Shown here piece by piece: positions 5,483 through 12,994 of a stretch of 16,529 bases of DNA. Origin of the DNA: Spirochaetaceae bacterium. Lineage in GTDB: Bacteria; Spirochaetota; Spirochaetia; B11-G9. The notes beneath the pieces were generated by a model. That model worked only from the letters and a program-made list of their open reading frames with translations, was not told the origin of the DNA and did not search any database. Position 1 is the first letter of the stretch, and every line of letters starts with the position of its first letter. The position numbers and the translations under genes are program-made. The stretch is from assembly GCA_030633365.1 (NCBI GenBank), contig DAOVSY010000020.1:1-16529 (forward strand). The letters are read 5' to 3'.

Positions 5483-7756
5483 ATGTCTAAACCGGCAACT
5501 CTCCCAATAGTAAGATTCAGTGTGAATCATCCCTGGATAATTATTTTGGCAACACTGATTCTTACTATTGGTTTAGCACTACCACTTCAAAATTTGCAGA
5601 TAGAATCTGATGTTGAAAGTCTACTCCCTGATGAAGTCATATCAGGAACAAGCCAGGAACAGTTAAAGATATACGACAAACTCCTGATAATGGTAAGTGG
5701 AGATAAACTCTTCTCTGTAGAAGGATTACAGAGGTTTCAGAAAAGTTATCAGGAAATTAAGAATATTCTCCCTGTAAAGCAAGTTATAGACCCTTTTTCA
5801 TTTACAACTCTTGAAAAAAATGGATCAAGACTTACTGCAGTTCCACTTTCACCAGGTGGAATAGCACCAGAAAATGATAAGGATCTTGAATTATTTATTA
5901 ACAGATTACACAGGTCTAAATATACAGAAGGTTTTTTAACTTCTGCTAATATGGATGCTCTGGTAGTTATTTTTTTAATTGAAAAAAATAATAACTATAA
6001 AAAAAATATGCAGGATATTGAAAAGGTGCTGGATCCCTTAAAAAATGAACTTGAAATAGTCATTACCGGGACATTACCGTTTTCTGCAGAAACAGAAATA
6101 TTTCTAACAGAAGGATTTGGAAAACTTCTATTATTTGTAATTATAACTATTCTTATAAGTTATTATTTGGGCTTTCAATCAAAACGTGCAGTTTTTCTTC
6201 CAATAACTATTGTTATAAGCGGCACCATTTTTTCTCTGGGGATAATGGTTCTGGTTGGTTTCAAATTATCTATGGTTAGTATAATATCCCCTCCCCTGGT
6301 ACTAACCCTGGGAAGCTCATACAGTATACATGTAATGAGTGCTTATTATAAACTCTCCGGAATTAGTAATGAATCTAAAAAAGATATTATTATAAAATCC
6401 GTTTCAGATATTAGCGGAACAGTTATTTTGGCATCTTTTACAACACTTATAGGATTACTGAGCCTATTGCTGGCTACTATTCATCAAACCAGAGAATTTG
6501 CAATTATAACATCTCTTGGTATTTTATTTACTGCTTTTCTTTCTATAACTTTATTACCTGCATTTCTTTCCCTTCAGCCAGCTCCGGAGGGTAAAAAACT
6601 CAAAAGTCTGGAATCAGATCCTCTATCAAAATTTCTACACCATTTTGGTTCCCGTATTATAAACAGGAAAGTACAGGCTTTTATAATTATTTTTATAATA
6701 GTTTTTGTTTTTATTTTTCTACTACCCAGTGTTTCATTTAATACAACTCCAAGTAAATATTTTCCTAAATCTTCAAAATTAATAATTGACAATAATAAAT
6801 TTTCCAAAAAAATAGGTGGTTTTGAGGAAATTAAAATATCGCTGGTTGGACCTGAAGAAGGATTTTTCCTTAAACCTGAAATTTTATCAAATATACATGA
6901 ACTGGAACAAAAACTTATTGCTTTACCGGATATCAGTTATTCTTTTTCATTTCCAGGATATTTAAATTTTGCAGGATCAGTAATGACAGGAGAAAACGGA
7001 TACTTCAAATCGAGAGGTCTTAATCTGCTGGTTTCCAGATTGTTTAATACAATAAATAAGGATAATAAATTTGTTTCTGAAGACTACTCAAACATAGATA
7101 TAATAATCCGAATATACGATAAAGCTAATAGCTTACCTATAGATGAAGAAGGAACAATCACTTTGATAAATGATCTTGAAAGAATATTAAGCAGTAATTT
7201 AGATAGTAATATTAAATGGAATATAAGTGGTACAAGCCTAAACTTTCTTGAACTTTCAAATCAAATGAGAAAAGATTTTTTTGTTTCTACTATTGCTGCT
7301 TTATTCCTGATAGGGACTATTGCTTCCATATCATTTAAGTCAATTATAAAAGGTATCCTTGCACTCATTCCACTACTGACCGGCATATTCACCAGCCTCA
7401 TTTTAATGGCTATTTTTCGCATACCCCTGGATATGACAACAATTATGGTCTCATGTATTTCTATTGGCGTAGGTGTTGATGATTCAATCCATTTTCTCTT
7501 ACAGTATCAAAAACAAATAAATATAAATCCAGAAAATCATAGAACTGCAGTATATGAAACTCTAATTCATTCCGGAAGACCAATTGTAATTACAACACTC
7601 TCAATCGTATCAGGATTGTTATTTTTGAGTTTTGCACAATTTCAACCTATTAGATATTTTGGCTTATTAATTATTTTTACTCTAAGTACAGCTTGTTTGG
7701 CAACTTTATTCATTTTACCCCCACTTTTAAAAACTACATCAAAGGTTAAAAAATGA
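5483..7756 (+). CDS. MMPL/RND superfamily lipid-type exporter
   Basis: Inner-membrane transporter of 757 aa with the duplicated RND architecture. TM1 is near residues 16-34, a large extracytoplasmic loop follows to about 213, then five helices (TM2-TM6); TM7 is near 398-417, a second large loop follows, then TM8-TM12 to the C-terminus. The helix TM10 carries GVGVDDSIH, the acidic pair used for proton relay in RND pumps. The matching place in the first half reads LGSSYSIH, without the acids, as in many MMPL/HAE3 members. This size and loop pattern match the MMPL/HAE3 branch that moves lipids, not the large drug pumps, and no adaptor or outer-membrane partner gene is present. It starts with ATG after a weak AAAGAG, 5 nt behind pfp, and overlaps the next gene by ATGA. 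The partner gene suggests the cargo is an acylated lipid; this is inference. Confidence 0.85.
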   Translation: MSKPATLPIVRFSVNHPWIIILATLILTIGLALPLQNLQIESDVESLLPDEVISGTSQEQLKIYDKLLIMVSGDKLFSVEGLQRFQKSYQEIKNILPVKQVIDPFSFTTLEKNGSRLTAVPLSPGGIAPENDKDLELFINRLHRSKYTEGFLTSANMDALVVIFLIEKNNNYKKNMQDIEKVLDPLKNELEIVITGTLPFSAETEIFLTEGFGKLLLFVIITILISYYLGFQSKRAVFLPITIVISGTIFSLGIMVLVGFKLSMVSIISPPLVLTLGSSYSIHVMSAYYKLSGISNESKKDIIIKSVSDISGTVILASFTTLIGLLSLLLATIHQTREFAIITSLGILFTAFLSITLLPAFLSLQPAPEGKKLKSLESDPLSKFLHHFGSRIINRKVQAFIIIFIIVFVFIFLLPSVSFNTTPSKYFPKSSKLIIDNNKFSKKIGGFEEIKISLVGPEEGFFLKPEILSNIHELEQKLIALPDISYSFSFPGYLNFAGSVMTGENGYFKSRGLNLLVSRLFNTINKDNKFVSEDYSNIDIIIRIYDKANSLPIDEEGTITLINDLERILSSNLDSNIKWNISGTSLNFLELSNQMRKDFFVSTIAALFLIGTIASISFKSIIKGILALIPLLTGIFTSLILMAIFRIPLDMTTIMVSCISIGVGVDDSIHFLLQYQKQININPENHRTAVYETLIHSGRPIVITTLSIVSGLLFLSFAQFQPIRYFGLLIIFTLSTACLATLFILPPLLKTTSKVKK

Positions 7757-9039
7757 CCAACACAGTACCAAAACTTATACCCATAGATAATGCTGCACAA
7801 ATTTTTGTATCTATAAATTCAAAAAAAGAAACTACAATGTCCAGAATAGCTCTTACATTAAAGCAACCAGTCGATAAGGATAAATTAAATGAAGCTCTTC
7901 TAAATGTTATCAAAGTTTTTCCTTTTTTTCAGGTCTATTTAAAAAAACAGTTTTTTAACTATATATTTGAAAGAACAGATGATCTTCCTGTTATCGAAAA
8001 TGATACAAAATGGACAAACAGATATGTCAATTTTAATAAAAACATGTTTCCCTTTAGAATTAAAGTTAAAAATAATACTATAGCCGTCGAATTATCACAT
8101 ATTTTATCTGACGGTTACGGAACACTTAGTTTTTTATTATCTTTAACAGCAGAATATTTACATATGCTCAATTATCAGCCAGGGGAATCTCTATTAATTA
8201 AAAAACCAGGTGACAAAATAGAAAATGAAGAATGGGAGTGTGCATTTCGCAACAATTTTTCCAAAAAAGGCCCAGGAATAAAAATTAATCCTTCAGCCTA
8301 TATACCAAAAGGAGAAATGATTTCTGTTGATAAATATTATAGTACAAGAATAATTATGGATCTTGAAAAAGTTCGTAAAATAGCAAGAGAGCATAACGTA
8401 ACCCTGAATGTTTATATATCTGCAATCTATACATTTGCCCTTCAGGAAATGTATATTGAAGAAATCAGGGATGGAAAAATAAAAAACACACTTCCTATAA
8501 GATTACAAATACCAGTAAATTTAAGAAAAGATTATCCAACCAGATGTCTTAGAAATTTCTCATATTTATACTCACCATCATTTAATATTACAAATGGTGC
8601 GTATTCTTTTCCAGAAATTATAGAAAAAATATCTCAGGCTATAAGACATGAAAGACACTCAGATTCTATTAAAAATCAGATATCACGTAATTTAAGAGCA
8701 GAAAGTAATTTATTTTTTAGAATATTACCACGAGTCTTTAAACAATTAATGTTCAGGGTATTCTATCAACTGTTTGCAAGAAGTCAGTATTCAGGCGTTT
8801 TAACAAATATGGGAGATATCAAATTACCTCCAGAGTTGGAAAAAGAAGTTAAATCTTTTGATATTATACCTTGTAATTCTCCTGTCCCAGGAAGAAATAC
8901 AGCATTATTCAGTTATAAGGGTAAGCTTGAAATTAATATAGGAAGTTCCTGCAGCGATCTTAACCTTGAAAATAAGATTATAAAAAAGCTGAAAAAACTT
9001 TCTATAGAACATAAGGTTATTTATAAAAGGGATAATTAG
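7753..9039 (+). CDS. condensation-fold acyltransferase, PapA/alcohol acetyltransferase-like
   Basis: Predicted O-acyltransferase (428 aa) of the chloramphenicol acetyltransferase/NRPS condensation fold. The active-site HxxxDG motif is HILSDG at 116-121, preceded by the strand IAVEL and followed by a helix as in the family. The N-terminus (PIDNAAQIF... then RIALTLKQPVDKDKLNEAL) and the C-terminal GVLTNMGDIKLPPEL resemble the alcohol acetyltransferase/PapA branch, which moves acyl groups from CoA or a carrier protein onto lipid hydroxyls. No signal peptide is visible, so it is probably cytoplasmic or membrane-associated. Its ATG overlaps the transporter stop (ATGA), so the two are translationally coupled. 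Its own stop overlaps by four bases the stop of the opposing serine-palmitoyltransferase-like gene. The acceptor is unknown; a sphingoid base, ceramide or other long-chain hydroxyl lipid is proposed from context. Confidence 0.75.
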   Translation: MTNTVPKLIPIDNAAQIFVSINSKKETTMSRIALTLKQPVDKDKLNEALLNVIKVFPFFQVYLKKQFFNYIFERTDDLPVIENDTKWTNRYVNFNKNMFPFRIKVKNNTIAVELSHILSDGYGTLSFLLSLTAEYLHMLNYQPGESLLIKKPGDKIENEEWECAFRNNFSKKGPGIKINPSAYIPKGEMISVDKYYSTRIIMDLEKVRKIAREHNVTLNVYISAIYTFALQEMYIEEIRDGKIKNTLPIRLQIPVNLRKDYPTRCLRNFSYLYSPSFNITNGAYSFPEIIEKISQAIRHERHSDSIKNQISRNLRAESNLFFRILPRVFKQLMFRVFYQLFARSQYSGVLTNMGDIKLPPELEKEVKSFDIIPCNSPVPGRNTALFSYKGKLEINIGSSCSDLNLENKIIKKLKKLSIEHKVIYKRDN

Positions 9040-10244
9040 ATTAATCCTAGAGCTTTTCCTGTGTCACCAATTATTTCCAAAATTTGATTCAACTCAGTAT
9101 CTGTATGTGTAGACATAAAACTGGTTCTTATCATTGCACGGTTTGGAGGTACTGCCGGAGTTATAACAGGATTAACATAAACTCCTTTTTCGAAAAGAGT
9201 CTTCCAGAATATAAAAGCTTTTTCGTTATCGCCTATAACAAGAGGAACAATGGGTGTTGTTGTAGATCCTGTATCAAAACCCATATCAGAAAAACCCTTA
9301 GCCATCTTTCTGCCAATCTGCTGTAATCGCTGTACACGTTCCGGCTCTTTTTTTATTATCTCCAATGCAGTAGATGCAGCTACAATATTTGCAGGAGGCA
9401 TACTTGCACTGAACATCAGAGGTCTGGCAAAATGTTTTATATAGTCTATTATCTTGGAATCACCTGCTACAAAACCACCGATTGATCCAAATGATTTTGA
9501 GAATGTACACATCATTACATCTGCAAATGCAGAATTATTAAAATGTTCTGTGGTACCTCTGCCAGTTTCACCAAGAACTCCAATTGAATGAGCTTCATCA
9601 AGATAAATAGCCGCATTATACTTATCAGCAAGTAATCTCATTTGAGGGAGATCGACTATGTCCCCTTCCATACTGAAAACTCCATCTGTAACTATCAGTT
9701 TTGGAGCATCTTCTGGTATTGATTTTAAGATTCTTTCCAGTTCTTCATAATTATTATGTCTGTATCTGTGTACATTTACTGATTTATTTAATCCAACAGT
9801 AAGAAAAATTCCATCCATTATTGAAGCATGATTATATTTATCTGTAATAACATGGTCACCCCGGCCAACAAGAGTTGAAATAGCTCCTAAATTTGTTTGA
9901 TGACCTGTTGTAAAACATAAGGCTTCTTCTTTACCTACAAAATCTGCTAATTTTTCTTCTAAATCTTCATGTAATGACAATGTCCCATTCATAAATCTGG
10001 AACCAGAACAACTTGTTCCATATTCTTTTAATGTTTTTACACTTGCTTCAACCATTCTGGGATCACCTGCCAGACCAAGATAGTTATTAGAACCAGCCAT
10101 GAGAAGCTCACGACCTTCAATAATAACTTTTGTTCCGGCATTTTTCCCTATAGGCTTAAAAAAAGGGTAAATCCCTGCTGCTCTTGCCTGTTCTGCTTCT
10201 TTAAATGCATAACATTTATCAAATATCTTAAAATTGCTGCTCAT
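9036..10244 (-). CDS. spt: serine palmitoyltransferase-like alpha-oxoamine synthase (PLP)
   Basis: PLP enzyme (402 aa) that would condense L-serine with a long acyl thioester to give 3-ketosphinganine, the first step of sphingolipid synthesis. The PLP lysine is K250 in TFSKSFGSIGGFVAG, D216 and H219 lie in YLDEAHSIG, and the stacking H115 lies in FTTGHQTN. The N-terminal AAGIYPFFKPI, GSRFMNGTLSLHEDLE, and the C-terminal PPNRAMIRTSFMSTHTD resemble soluble bacterial SPTs. Close relatives (glycine C-acetyltransferase Kbl, 8-amino-7-oxononanoate synthase BioF) share the fold; Kbl is excluded mainly by context, since no threonine dehydrogenase or biotin gene is near. The start ATG follows GGGAGA. 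It is last of three genes, 14 nt after the KDSR-like SDR. Family is certain, SPT specificity likely. Confidence 0.85.
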   Translation of the reverse strand: MSSNFKIFDKCYAFKEAEQARAAGIYPFFKPIGKNAGTKVIIEGRELLMAGSNNYLGLAGDPRMVEASVKTLKEYGTSCSGSRFMNGTLSLHEDLEEKLADFVGKEEALCFTTGHQTNLGAISTLVGRGDHVITDKYNHASIMDGIFLTVGLNKSVNVHRYRHNNYEELERILKSIPEDAPKLIVTDGVFSMEGDIVDLPQMRLLADKYNAAIYLDEAHSIGVLGETGRGTTEHFNNSAFADVMMCTFSKSFGSIGGFVAGDSKIIDYIKHFARPLMFSASMPPANIVAASTALEIIKKEPERVQRLQQIGRKMAKGFSDMGFDTGSTTTPIVPLVIGDNEKAFIFWKTLFEKGVYVNPVITPAVPPNRAMIRTSFMSTHTDTELNQILEIIGDTGKALGLI

Positions 10245-10258
10245 TTTATCTGTTCTCC

Positions 10259-11074
10259 CTATTTTTTATTAATTTTCCTGACATCACTATCCATTATTGC
10301 AAAAATAAGGGCTGGAATAAATCTTTTTAATAAAAATGTTAATTTTCCCATAAATCCAGGAATGATCATAAATTTATTAGTTCTAATACCCTTAATTAAG
10401 TCTCTTGCTACTTTATCTGCACTAATTAGTTTAACATTACCTGAAATGGCATGAGTCTCTTCCGGTTTTGTTTTATTTTCCTCTTTCATTCCCGGAGTAT
10501 CAGTATCCGGAGGGCAAAGGACTGAGACCCTAATTCCTTTTGGCTTTAATTCACCTCTGAGAGCTTCTGAGAGGCCAACAACTGCAAACTTGGAAGCCGA
10601 GTAAGCTGTAAACCCAAATACGCCAATAAATCCTCCAATTGAGGAAACATTAACTATATGACTACCTTTCTTCATAAAAGGAACAATAACTGAGAGAACA
10701 TTCCAGGTTCCTGTTAAATTAGTTGCTATTGTTTTTTCATAACTGTTAAAAGGTATTTTTTCAAAATAATCAGGATATGCCATACCAGCACAGTTGATAA
10801 GTATATTGGGTATTCCAAAGTTATCCAATTGTTCTGAAAGAGCTTTTTTTACTTCCTTATTATTACTAATATCCAGAGAACAAATTTCTATTATATTAGT
10901 TTCATTCTGATCTTTTTCTTTAATTAATAGATCCCTGGCAGCTTCTAATTTTGTTACATTTCTTGAAATTAATAGTACAGATGCACCATATTTAATGAAT
11001 TCTTTGGCTGTAGCAAGGCCAATCCCACTTGACCCGCCTGTAATGTATATTATTTTATTATTAAAATCTTTCAT
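10259..11074 (-). CDS. SDR oxidoreductase, 3-ketodihydrosphingosine reductase (KDSR)-like
   Basis: NAD(P)H-dependent short-chain dehydrogenase, 271 aa from the chosen start, predicted to reduce 3-ketosphinganine to sphinganine. Seen: nucleotide-binding TGGSSGIG (12-19), NCAG (94-97), catalytic S144/S145, Y158 and K162 in YSASK, then CPPDTDTPGMKEENKTKPEE from residue 187. The PPDTDTPG...EN..KP.ET run is characteristic of eukaryotic KDSR/Tsc10 and differs from ordinary fatty-acid FabG proteins, which end this loop differently. A hydrophobic C-terminal segment (about 243-262) may touch the membrane, also as in KDSR. ATG 11074 lies 4 nt after the GNAT stop and puts the first strand at the usual distance; it has a weak binding site. 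An in-frame ATG at 11128 inside the GNAT gene has GGAGA before it and would add 18 residues, so the start is open. Confidence 0.85.
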   Translation of the reverse strand: MKDFNNKIIYITGGSSGIGLATAKEFIKYGASVLLISRNVTKLEAARDLLIKEKDQNETNIIEICSLDISNNKEVKKALSEQLDNFGIPNILINCAGMAYPDYFEKIPFNSYEKTIATNLTGTWNVLSVIVPFMKKGSHIVNVSSIGGFIGVFGFTAYSASKFAVVGLSEALRGELKPKGIRVSVLCPPDTDTPGMKEENKTKPEETHAISGNVKLISADKVARDLIKGIRTNKFMIIPGFMGKLTFLLKRFIPALIFAIMDSDVRKINKK

Positions 11075-11078
11075 ATTT

Positions 11079-12200
11079 CTATAGTGTTTTAATAAAACAT
11101 CTCCTTCTTTTATGCTGCCGATGTTCATAATGTCTCCACATATCCTGAACAGCTTTGTTATCTTCAAGCTCTCCTGATGTTTCACATACCTGAATCCCGT
11201 TTTTTATAGCATTCTTATTAATTTCGTTAAACATAATAGATATTACACCATGACCAATATATTCTTTTTTAACCCCAATTAGATAAAAATCCAGTTTTGT
11301 TGGATGTTTTGTAGCCTGAAGCATATAAAGTAGGCCAAAAGGGAATTTTCTACCCCTAGCTTTTCTTAAAGCTTCTGTAAAAGAGGGGAATACAAGTCCT
11401 ACCGCAACAACTTCATTCTTGTCATTTACAATAAATTTTGAATATTCAGGAATTAGAAACCCAAAATACTGATCTGTATAGAATTTTTTTTGTTTATCAG
11501 TGAAAGGAATAGTTCCAAAGAGATCAACATAGGATTCTTCAATAATATCCCAGAAACCGGGAATATAAGGTTTAACATCCTTTGCTTTTTTTGCATCCAA
11601 AAGATGTAATTTTGATCTTTTAAGAATTAAACTATTCACTCTGGCAATCTTTTCAGGGATAGTATCAGGTACTTTTATCTCAAATTCCAGCCAGTCCACT
11701 TCTTTTTTATAACCAAGCTTTTTAAGATGCTCCGGATAATATGCATAATTATAGATCATAGGGTATGTTCCCTGCTCTTCGAAACCTTCTATAAGCATCC
11801 CTTCTTCATCCATATCAGTAAAACCCATTGGCCCTTCAATAGATTCCAGGCCATTCTCTTTCGCCCAGACTTCCGCTTTTTTTAGAAGTTCTTTTGAAAC
11901 TTCCTCATCATCAATAAAATCTATCCATCCAAACCTGGCTTTCTTTACACTCCATTTTTCTATAAGAGCATCATTTATTATTGCAGCTATCCTTCCGGCA
12001 ATTTTTCCATCTTTATATGCTAACCAATATTTAACTTTGCAGTAATCAAAAGCAGGATTGGTATCCCAGCTAAGAGTATTTATTTCATCACTCATAAATG
12101 GAGGAGCCCAATACTGATTGTCCTTATAAAGTTTAAAAGGATATTTAACAAATTTTTTCAAATCATTTTTTGTTAGTACTTCTTTAATCTCAATGCCCAT
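11079..12200 (-). CDS. GNAT-fold acyltransferase, candidate bacterial ceramide synthase
   Basis: Protein of 373 aa. The C-terminal third looks like a GNAT acyl-CoA binding fold: KNEVVAVGLVFPSF, then DFYLIGVKKEYIGHGVISIM (acyl-CoA loop), and a basic ending MWRHYEHRQHKRRR. The middle GPMGFTDMDEEGMLIEGFEE and the run TYPMIYNYAYYPEHLKKLGY are conserved landmarks of a large, mostly unnamed bacterial family that I recall from Bacteroidota and proteobacteria. The bacterial ceramide synthase described in Caulobacter is a GNAT-like N-acyltransferase of similar size, which makes N-acylation of the sphingoid base the best guess here. The gene is first of the three and has a strong GGAGG 4 nt before the ATG. 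It could instead acylate another amine. The GNAT fold call is firmer than the substrate. Confidence 0.7.
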   Translation of the reverse strand: MGIEIKEVLTKNDLKKFVKYPFKLYKDNQYWAPPFMSDEINTLSWDTNPAFDYCKVKYWLAYKDGKIAGRIAAIINDALIEKWSVKKARFGWIDFIDDEEVSKELLKKAEVWAKENGLESIEGPMGFTDMDEEGMLIEGFEEQGTYPMIYNYAYYPEHLKKLGYKKEVDWLEFEIKVPDTIPEKIARVNSLILKRSKLHLLDAKKAKDVKPYIPGFWDIIEESYVDLFGTIPFTDKQKKFYTDQYFGFLIPEYSKFIVNDKNEVVAVGLVFPSFTEALRKARGRKFPFGLLYMLQATKHPTKLDFYLIGVKKEYIGHGVISIMFNEINKNAIKNGIQVCETSGELEDNKAVQDMWRHYEHRQHKRRRCFIKTL

Positions 12201-12241: not shown

Positions 12242-12994
12242 TTAATTACTAAAACTTACAGAAAAATACTCAGGTTCATCAAGTAAGAGTATTCTTAATA
12301 AAGGTATCTTAAATCTTACAGTATCCAAATCCAACTTAGTGCCACCACTTTGTGAAATTATTTTACCGTCTACATTTACATCAAACAGTAAATACGATTC
12401 TTGTATTCCTACCCGACTCTCATCTCCAAGTGCATATTGCATCATCTCAAGATAATCTTCATCTTTTAGACCTTGATTTGCCAATGGACCAAAACTTTTC
12501 ATTAATGGAGAATCCATTGAAGGATTAGCCAATAAAAATTGTTCGACAGTTGTATAATTTATTTTAACAGACAATGTATGAATATTATTTTTACTGGAAA
12601 AACTAAAAATATCCATTATATTATTTTTACCCGAACCATTTAAAGCTGTTCGTATATCATCAAACAATAGAGTCCCCTGTAAAATATTACTGGAGGGATT
12701 TTCAAGTTTTTGTAGAGTTGAACCACGGGTTTCAGAAAAATCTTCTCTTATTTTTTCAATTTCAAATAAACTCTGACTGTTAATTGGGTTTGCACCCTCA
12801 TCTGGGAAGAGCTCAGATAGTTGTAAAGCAACTTCTACAAAGAATGGTGCAAGAATAAGTTCAAAATCAATATCTCCGGAACCTTCTGCATTTATATTTA
12901 AAGTTTGTTTTAGTGTACAGGATTGGAAATTAAAAATTAAGAATAATATTGAGGATATTAGAATAATCCAGTAATTCTCTTTTTTTAGATGCAA
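12242..12994 (-). CDS. unknown predicted lipoprotein
   Basis: I do not recognise the family. The 250-aa product starts with KK, a hydrophobic stretch (about residues 9-23) and a cysteine at C26 in FNFQSC, a loose lipobox of the sort accepted by spirochaetal signal peptidase II, so it is probably lipidated. The mature part begins LKQTLNINAEGSGDIDFEL, a pattern of alternating polar and hydrophobic residues with Gly-Ser-Gly that suggests beta structure; the rest is a mixed alpha/beta protein with no membrane helix. The start is TTG (12994), chosen because GGAGAG lies about five bases before it and because it gives the complete signal peptide. It lies between the Fe-ADH gene (94-nt gap) and the sphingolipid genes (41-nt gap, same strand), so a role near the lipid pathway is possible but unsupported. 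Confidence 0.75.
   Translation of the reverse strand: MHLKKENYWIILISSILFLIFNFQSCTLKQTLNINAEGSGDIDFELILAPFFVEVALQLSELFPDEGANPINSQSLFEIEKIREDFSETRGSTLQKLENPSSNILQGTLLFDDIRTALNGSGKNNIMDIFSFSSKNNIHTLSVKINYTTVEQFLLANPSMDSPLMKSFGPLANQGLKDEDYLEMMQYALGDESRVGIQESYLLFDVNVDGKIISQSGGTKLDLDTVRFKIPLLRILLLDEPEYFSVSFSN

Follow-up and report, generated by a model that had tools for sequence, protein, structure and literature searches.

The window examined here, the whole 16,529-nt stretch of contig DAOVSY010000020.1 from a Spirochaetaceae bacterium (GCA_030633365.1), carries a cluster of three minus-strand genes that is real, conserved and most likely of sphingolipid type. Reading from position 12,200 to 9036, the genes are predicted to encode a tandem GNAT N-acyltransferase of the bacterial ceramide-synthase (CerS) family (11079..12200, 373 aa), a classical short-chain dehydrogenase/reductase (SDR) resembling 3-ketosphinganine reductases (10259..11074, 271 aa from the ATG at 11074) and a pyridoxal-phosphate (PLP) enzyme resembling serine palmitoyltransferase (SPT; 9036..10244, 402 aa, Schiff-base lysine Lys250). 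All open reading frames (ORFs) are present at this span. An earlier, sequence-only reading of the window had described three adjacent genes at 9036..12200, separated by 4 and 14 nt, and both the span and the gaps (GNAT/SDR and SDR/PLP enzyme, respectively) were confirmed exactly. The GNAT gene has GGAGGAATT ahead of its ATG and the PLP-enzyme gene an AGGGAGA ribosome-binding site ahead of its start; no clear ribosome-binding site was found near the ATG of the SDR gene. A longer SDR start in the ORF list, a GTG at 11185, would overlap the GNAT gene, and most aligned relatives start at the ATG. A scan for promoters and terminators gave counts near the shuffled level (25 versus 19.2 and 2 versus 2.5) and carries no weight in our analysis.

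The gene order is kept in the nearest locus (L001, titled Spirochaetaceae), where GNAT, SDR and SPT are 85, 69 and 89% identical to those of the window, the SPT being cut by the contig end. L001 also keeps four further neighbours from the window. A second locus (L002, titled Spirochaetes) retains the three genes at 72, 57 and 79% identity, together with the acyltransferase and transporter genes described below. This shared order, with its shared flanking genes, argues that the cluster is not a product of chance. The window further encodes a pyrophosphate-dependent phosphofructokinase, one of the features from which a spirochaete host had been proposed. It found a match in nine of ten genomes taken as spirochaetes by title or phylum sample (56–85% identity, best in G001 at 85%; the sole miss was G097) and in none of six other genomes (E ≤ 1e-60), a pattern that supports the proposed origin.

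The PLP enzyme groups with SPTs and is itself a predicted SPT. Its best match in the PDB is the SPT of Sphingobacterium multivorum (409 bits), compared with at most 279 bits for Kbl/BioF-type chains, a score tied by a second SPT chain (2x8u), and 194 bits for the SulA chain 7u7h. The sequence-only reading had named a grouping inside Kbl or BioF as the result that would speak against it. In the 77-row tree that was run, a branch with support of 100/96 parts five SPT references (one solved structure and four assigned by homology and position) from four Kbl/BioF references, and the window enzyme lies on the SPT side, outside both Kbl and BioF. The fork holding only the 59 SPT-side rows has support of 86/69, and the branches among SPT subgroups are partly resolved. 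On the PDB ranking and the tree, a Kbl or BioF identity was rejected.

The residues N53, H139, D216, H219, K250 and R373 of the PLP enzyme are those of S. multivorum SPT and are common to the whole superfamily. At the position where SulA has Lys281, the window enzyme has Ala280. Alanine (Spt) versus lysine (SulA, the cysteate enzymes) at this position distinguishes the two enzymes according to PMC9304779. Alanine occupies the position in all 59 SPT-side rows; the other 18 rows have asparagine in nine cases, threonine in five and lysine in four.

The GNAT is a member of the bacterial CerS family by homology, and N-acylation is its predicted activity. It aligns over its full length, at 26–28% identity, with the GNATs of Roseomonas (L148, E = 1e-39) and Klebsiella (L149, E = 1e-43), which served as sequence stand-ins for the Caulobacter-type genes and whose clusters also hold SPT, acyl carrier protein (ACP) and the reductase CerR. 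No match was found among PDB sequences at E ≤ 1. An SPT-like protein (E ≤ 1e-90) is present in 45 of 50 genomes chosen for this GNAT, five of the 50 being already known to carry an SPT on the locus. Separately, the window GNAT is related to YghO of Escherichia coli (match H6; H7 and H8 are unannotated; plasmid matches), at 28.8% identity over 99%; YghO is therefore part of the wide family that also includes CerS.

The reductase is, by its sequence, clearly a classical SDR. It is matched by PF00106 with 160.7 bits and by PF01370 with just 30 bits, as against 87–136 bits for four CerRs, and it carries GGSSGIG (GxxxGxG) and YSASK (YxxxK) motifs. At the CerR position, the clusters of Roseomonas, Klebsiella, Rubrobacter and Aureispira have extended SDRs of the PF01370 type, and no meaningful BLAST similarity was found between the window SDR and the cluster CerRs. 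BLAST and Pfam family together rule out a CerR identity, a point absent from the sequence-only reading.

Common to the window SDR and its relatives is CPPDTDTP with E-x-x-T/S-K-P-x-E-T after it (PPDTDTPGxxEENxTKPEET in the window); no mention of the PPDTDTP motif was found in a literature search. A PGFxxENRTKP block is likewise present in yeast TSC10 (8jat), a 3-ketodihydrosphingosine reductase and classical SDR whose overall similarity to the window SDR is low, the block alone giving a weak E-value. Searched against the PDB, a 63-aa segment with the motif returned five matches, of which TSC10 ranked highest (E = 0.38; alignment over PGFDAENRTKP). For a 97-aa C-terminal query the top match was hydroxysteroid dehydrogenase 13 and TSC10 came sixth, and a 12-row SDR profile placed TSC10 seventh of 399 matches with 138 bits. 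When an SDR pattern was used to select ORFs, 24 of the 31 selected had the block, in a set with many repeated fetches and with a pattern that overlooked at least two SDRs; among the 24 are the SPT-adjacent SDRs of L001, L002, L138, L139, L140 and L142. The SDR of L199 also has it. A role as 3-ketosphinganine reductase (KDSR) is plausible for the window SDR. The enzyme assignments of the sequence-only reading thus stand: the PLP enzyme falls with SPT, the CerS-like GNAT is supported by its homologues in the Roseomonas and Klebsiella clusters, and "ketosphinganine-reductase-like" holds in that qualified form, for a classical SDR with a block shared with TSC10.

Relatives of this SDR keep varied company. 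In the clostridium Thermoclostridium caenicola (G010; L069, L081), an SPT-side protein adjoins a divergent classical SDR (in L081) that lacks the TKP block; elsewhere the organism has a CerS-family GNAT. In other spirochaetes the same SDR adjoins what by eye is an acyl-ligase-like gene (L157, L158, L159 and L162), a distant CerR-like extended SDR (L154–L156 and L164; 90–98 bits) or a second classical SDR (L154, L156, L158, L159 and L162).

Eighteen fetched loci carry SPT and this GNAT together. CerR stands beside them in 12 (11 from Bacteroidota plus the proteobacterial L073) and a classical SDR in two (L001 and L002); in the other four (L005, L007, L008 and L029) neither reductase was found by these searches. 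The clustering of the steps, which had been called notable in itself, is therefore not so, given how often the fetched Bacteroidota loci hold a compact SPT-GNAT-CerR set. Scanning 19 genomes with profiles of both reductases gave the SDR in nine (≥357 bits), CerR in six (≥352 bits), neither in four and both in none, with best scores of 149.5 and 148.1 bits in genomes of the opposite type. These genomes were hand-chosen and several supplied rows to the two profiles, so the exclusivity is a pattern and no survey. In the two nearest metagenome-assembled genomes (MAGs; G001 and G002), which may be incomplete, no CerR match was found at E ≤ 1e-20. Two Anaerolineaceae genomes (G271 and G264), scored with the SDR profile only, reached 296 and 256 bits.

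Across 247 genomes of the phylum of G002, Spirochaetota, SPT was found in 39 (E ≤ 1e-110). The SDR lies within 150 nt on the same strand in five of these, and a window-type GNAT completes the cluster in one (G002). Direct adjacency of SDR and SPT is seen in G001, G002, G016, G059, G152, G007, G257 and G097. The last of these represents a second spirochaete lineage, with GNAT, SDR and SPT in the same order and gaps of 27 and 31 nt (L209). Its GNAT is closer to those of Rubrobacter (30% identity, 209 bits) and Klebsiella (34%, 201 bits) than to that of the window (26%, 134 bits), and the branches of the GNAT tree do not resolve its position. With a wider CerS profile, a CerS-family GNAT was found in 17 of 22 chosen spirochaete genomes; none was found at E ≤ 1e-15 in G016, G059, G152, G217 and G153.

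How does the cluster compare with known systems? The Caulobacter and other proteobacterial ceramide genes are arranged as aasR-cerR-acpR-spt, with cerS apart (PMC11324152, PMC11087976). Their SPT and GNAT-type CerS are homologous to those of the window, and the same two-chain product would be expected. In contrast to this five-gene locus, neither a dedicated ACP nor an acyl-ACP synthetase turned up among the window's translated ORFs or the Pfam matches of ten of them, and the reductase is a classical SDR rather than a CerR of the PF01370 type. Bacteroidota clusters (for example L018, L045 and L078) have a likewise compact three-gene layout, and their SPT and GNAT are 44–51% identical to those of the window (13 loci); however, their order is SPT-GNAT-CerR and their reductase is an extended SDR. 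According to PMC11334938, which cites earlier work, the three genes lie apart from one another in Bacteroidota that make sphingolipids; in the Bacteroidota MAG loci fetched here, by contrast, SPT, GNAT and CerR are clustered.

We interpret the cluster as a dihydroceramide-synthesis cluster of a spirochaete, with a probability of about 0.72. The PLP enzyme would condense L-serine with a long-chain acyl thioester to give 3-ketosphinganine, the classical SDR would reduce the ketone to sphinganine with NAD(P)H, and the tandem GNAT would place a second acyl chain on the amino group to yield dihydroceramide. The amino acid, the acyl donor, the order of reduction before acylation and a cytoplasmic site are all inferred.

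Two bacterial ceramide routes have been described, one with reduction first and one with acylation first (PMC10865984), and the order of the last two steps is disputed (PMC11087976). The reductase class of the window points to reduction first. An acylation-first order, as proposed for Caulobacter Spt, bCerS and CerR (PMC11087976), would have the GNAT acylate 3-ketosphinganine and the SDR then reduce the ketoceramide; the GNAT-SDR-SPT gene order does not decide between the two. We consider this order unlikely, as the window reductase is not a CerR and resembles, through the block shared with TSC10 at E = 0.38, the class acting on the free base. Bacteroides thetaiotaomicron BT_0972, an SDR-family protein with GxxxGxG and YxxxK motifs like those of the window SDR, has 3-ketosphinganine reductase activity (PMC9278070).

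The identity of the amino acid leaves room for a second alternative, in which the PLP enzyme prefers alanine or glycine and the products are 1-deoxy-type ceramides. The tested active-site residues all equal those of the serine-using S. multivorum enzyme, which makes this rather improbable, but apart from Ala280 those residues are superfamily-wide and so not decisive. It is very unlikely that the cluster makes no lipid at all, in which case the PLP enzyme would be a Kbl or BioF paralogue and the SDR and GNAT unrelated to it: some databases do call relatives 8-amino-7-oxononanoate synthase, and the BioF model scores 372.5 bits, below its cut-off, but the tree, the PDB ranking and the conserved three-gene context argue otherwise, and at least one of the same genomes has a separate Kbl-side protein (L191 in G002). 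A sulfonolipid (capnine) cluster using cysteate, conceivable for an enzyme of the same superfamily and given paralogues with lysine at the SulA position in other spirochaete genomes (L192 and L193), is hardly credible because the window enzyme has Ala280 instead, and it scores 194 bits against SulA versus 409 bits against S. multivorum SPT.

Several observations weigh against the dihydroceramide interpretation itself. The best NCBIfam model for the PLP enzyme is SPT (NF047600, an equivalog), at 505 bits and thus under the curated cut-off of 640. The SDR is linked to KDSR by a short block (E = 0.38) and gene context, a single-sequence search puts TSC10 far down, below generic SDRs, and the SDR of L209 has a partial block (PPDTDTPGF and KPEET without the T/S). 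The GNAT family is broad: SPT shares the locus in 18 of 80 fetched loci, many of them cut by contig ends, five of the 50 GNAT genomes have no SPT match, and in that scan the weakest matches (41% identity) may represent other members of the family. The SDR-SPT pairs of G016, G059 and G152 (L138, L139 and L140) occur where no CerS-family GNAT was found in the genome at E ≤ 1e-15, the first two genomes being single contigs of about 2.5 Mb and G152 not; such a pair can therefore be of use in the absence of this acyltransferase. Co-occurrence in the 247 Spirochaetota genomes, which speaks for the interpretation, has to be read with care. SPT is present in 15 of 24 genomes with an SDR of at least 240 bits, a threshold chosen after the scores were seen (3.8 expected; Fisher 3e-8), and in 15 of 49 at the SDR search cut-off (p = 0.0025). 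These statistics, like those for SPT in genomes with the GNAT (9 of 13 versus 2.05 expected; p = 1e-5) and with the 428-aa acyltransferase introduced below (12 of 41; p = 0.012), ignore the relatedness of the genomes.

Convergent to the cluster lies a plus-strand gene for a PapA5/wax-synthase-like acyltransferase of 428 aa (7753..9039), whose tail overlaps that of the SPT gene by 4 nt. Its HxxxDG motif (H116, D120 and G121) is invariant in 12 aligned rows; PF07247 (AATase) matches six of the 12, and the window row matches none. A model of the protein resembles PapA5 (1q9j, rank 3 by fold) and wax ester synthase. Among the 247 Spirochaetota genomes, only G002 has a protein with 63% identity, others reaching at most 34%. 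At all eleven other loci examined (L166–L176), the gene that comes after the acyltransferase relative instead encodes a conserved zinc-ribbon-like protein (by eye) of about 235–290 aa. Overlapping the acyltransferase gene by 4 nt is a gene for an MMPL/RND-type transporter (5483..7756, plus strand; PF03176, 110.9 bits), and both genes hold the same place in L002. The pairing of a PapA-like enzyme with an MMPL transporter is reminiscent of lipid export in mycobacteria. The acyltransferase could possibly carry out a later O-acylation of the cluster's product, and the transporter could possibly export it. Directly upstream of the cluster and on the same minus strand, a gene for a 250-aa lipoprotein-like protein (12242..12994; by eye) occupies the same place in L001 (55% identity); the protein has no match in Pfam or NCBIfam.

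PLP paralogues with lysine at the SulA position were found in G006 (L192, titled Spirochaetales), G009 (L193, titled Spirochaetaceae), G057 (L190, from the phylum sample) and G004 (L195, Chitinophagaceae), and together they form one clade beside the SPTs. They are predicted cysteate enzymes, and given their lysine, sulfonolipids may occur in spirochaetes too. The Ala/Lys/Asn/Thr position combined with the reductase class could offer simple genome markers for sphingolipids, sulfonolipids and other members of the family.

Taken together, the data allow a wider reading, which we put forward tentatively. Bacteria may have two ceramide routes that exclude each other and differ in their reductase, CerR acting after acylation and a ketosphinganine-reductase-type SDR acting before it, as in eukaryotes. 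In spirochaetes a single operon would then encode the second route, in at least two lineages whose CerS subfamilies are distant from each other. One of these lineages would couple it to a PapA-like acyltransferase and an MMPL exporter, so that an acylated ceramide lipid reaches the outer envelope.

One metagenome study (PMC11334938) has described Spt-like genes in MAGs belonging to 38 phyla; its main text holds no word beginning with "spirochaet", and a spirochaete among the 38 phyla is possible. Judged by title, no paper on point for a sphingolipid locus in spirochaetes was found in the literature searched, and one paper from that search mentions spirochaetes, in the part of its text considered, only for inositol lipids. 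The parts of the cluster are already known; what is new is that they are combined with a classical SDR and occur in Spirochaetota. As a compact three-gene set with a classical SDR, and with no CerR match at E ≤ 1e-20 in the two nearest MAGs, it would provide a small expressible system for testing the reduce-first order. Moreover, it predicts sphingolipids in the spirochaetes, a group without a described sphingolipid locus in the literature searched.

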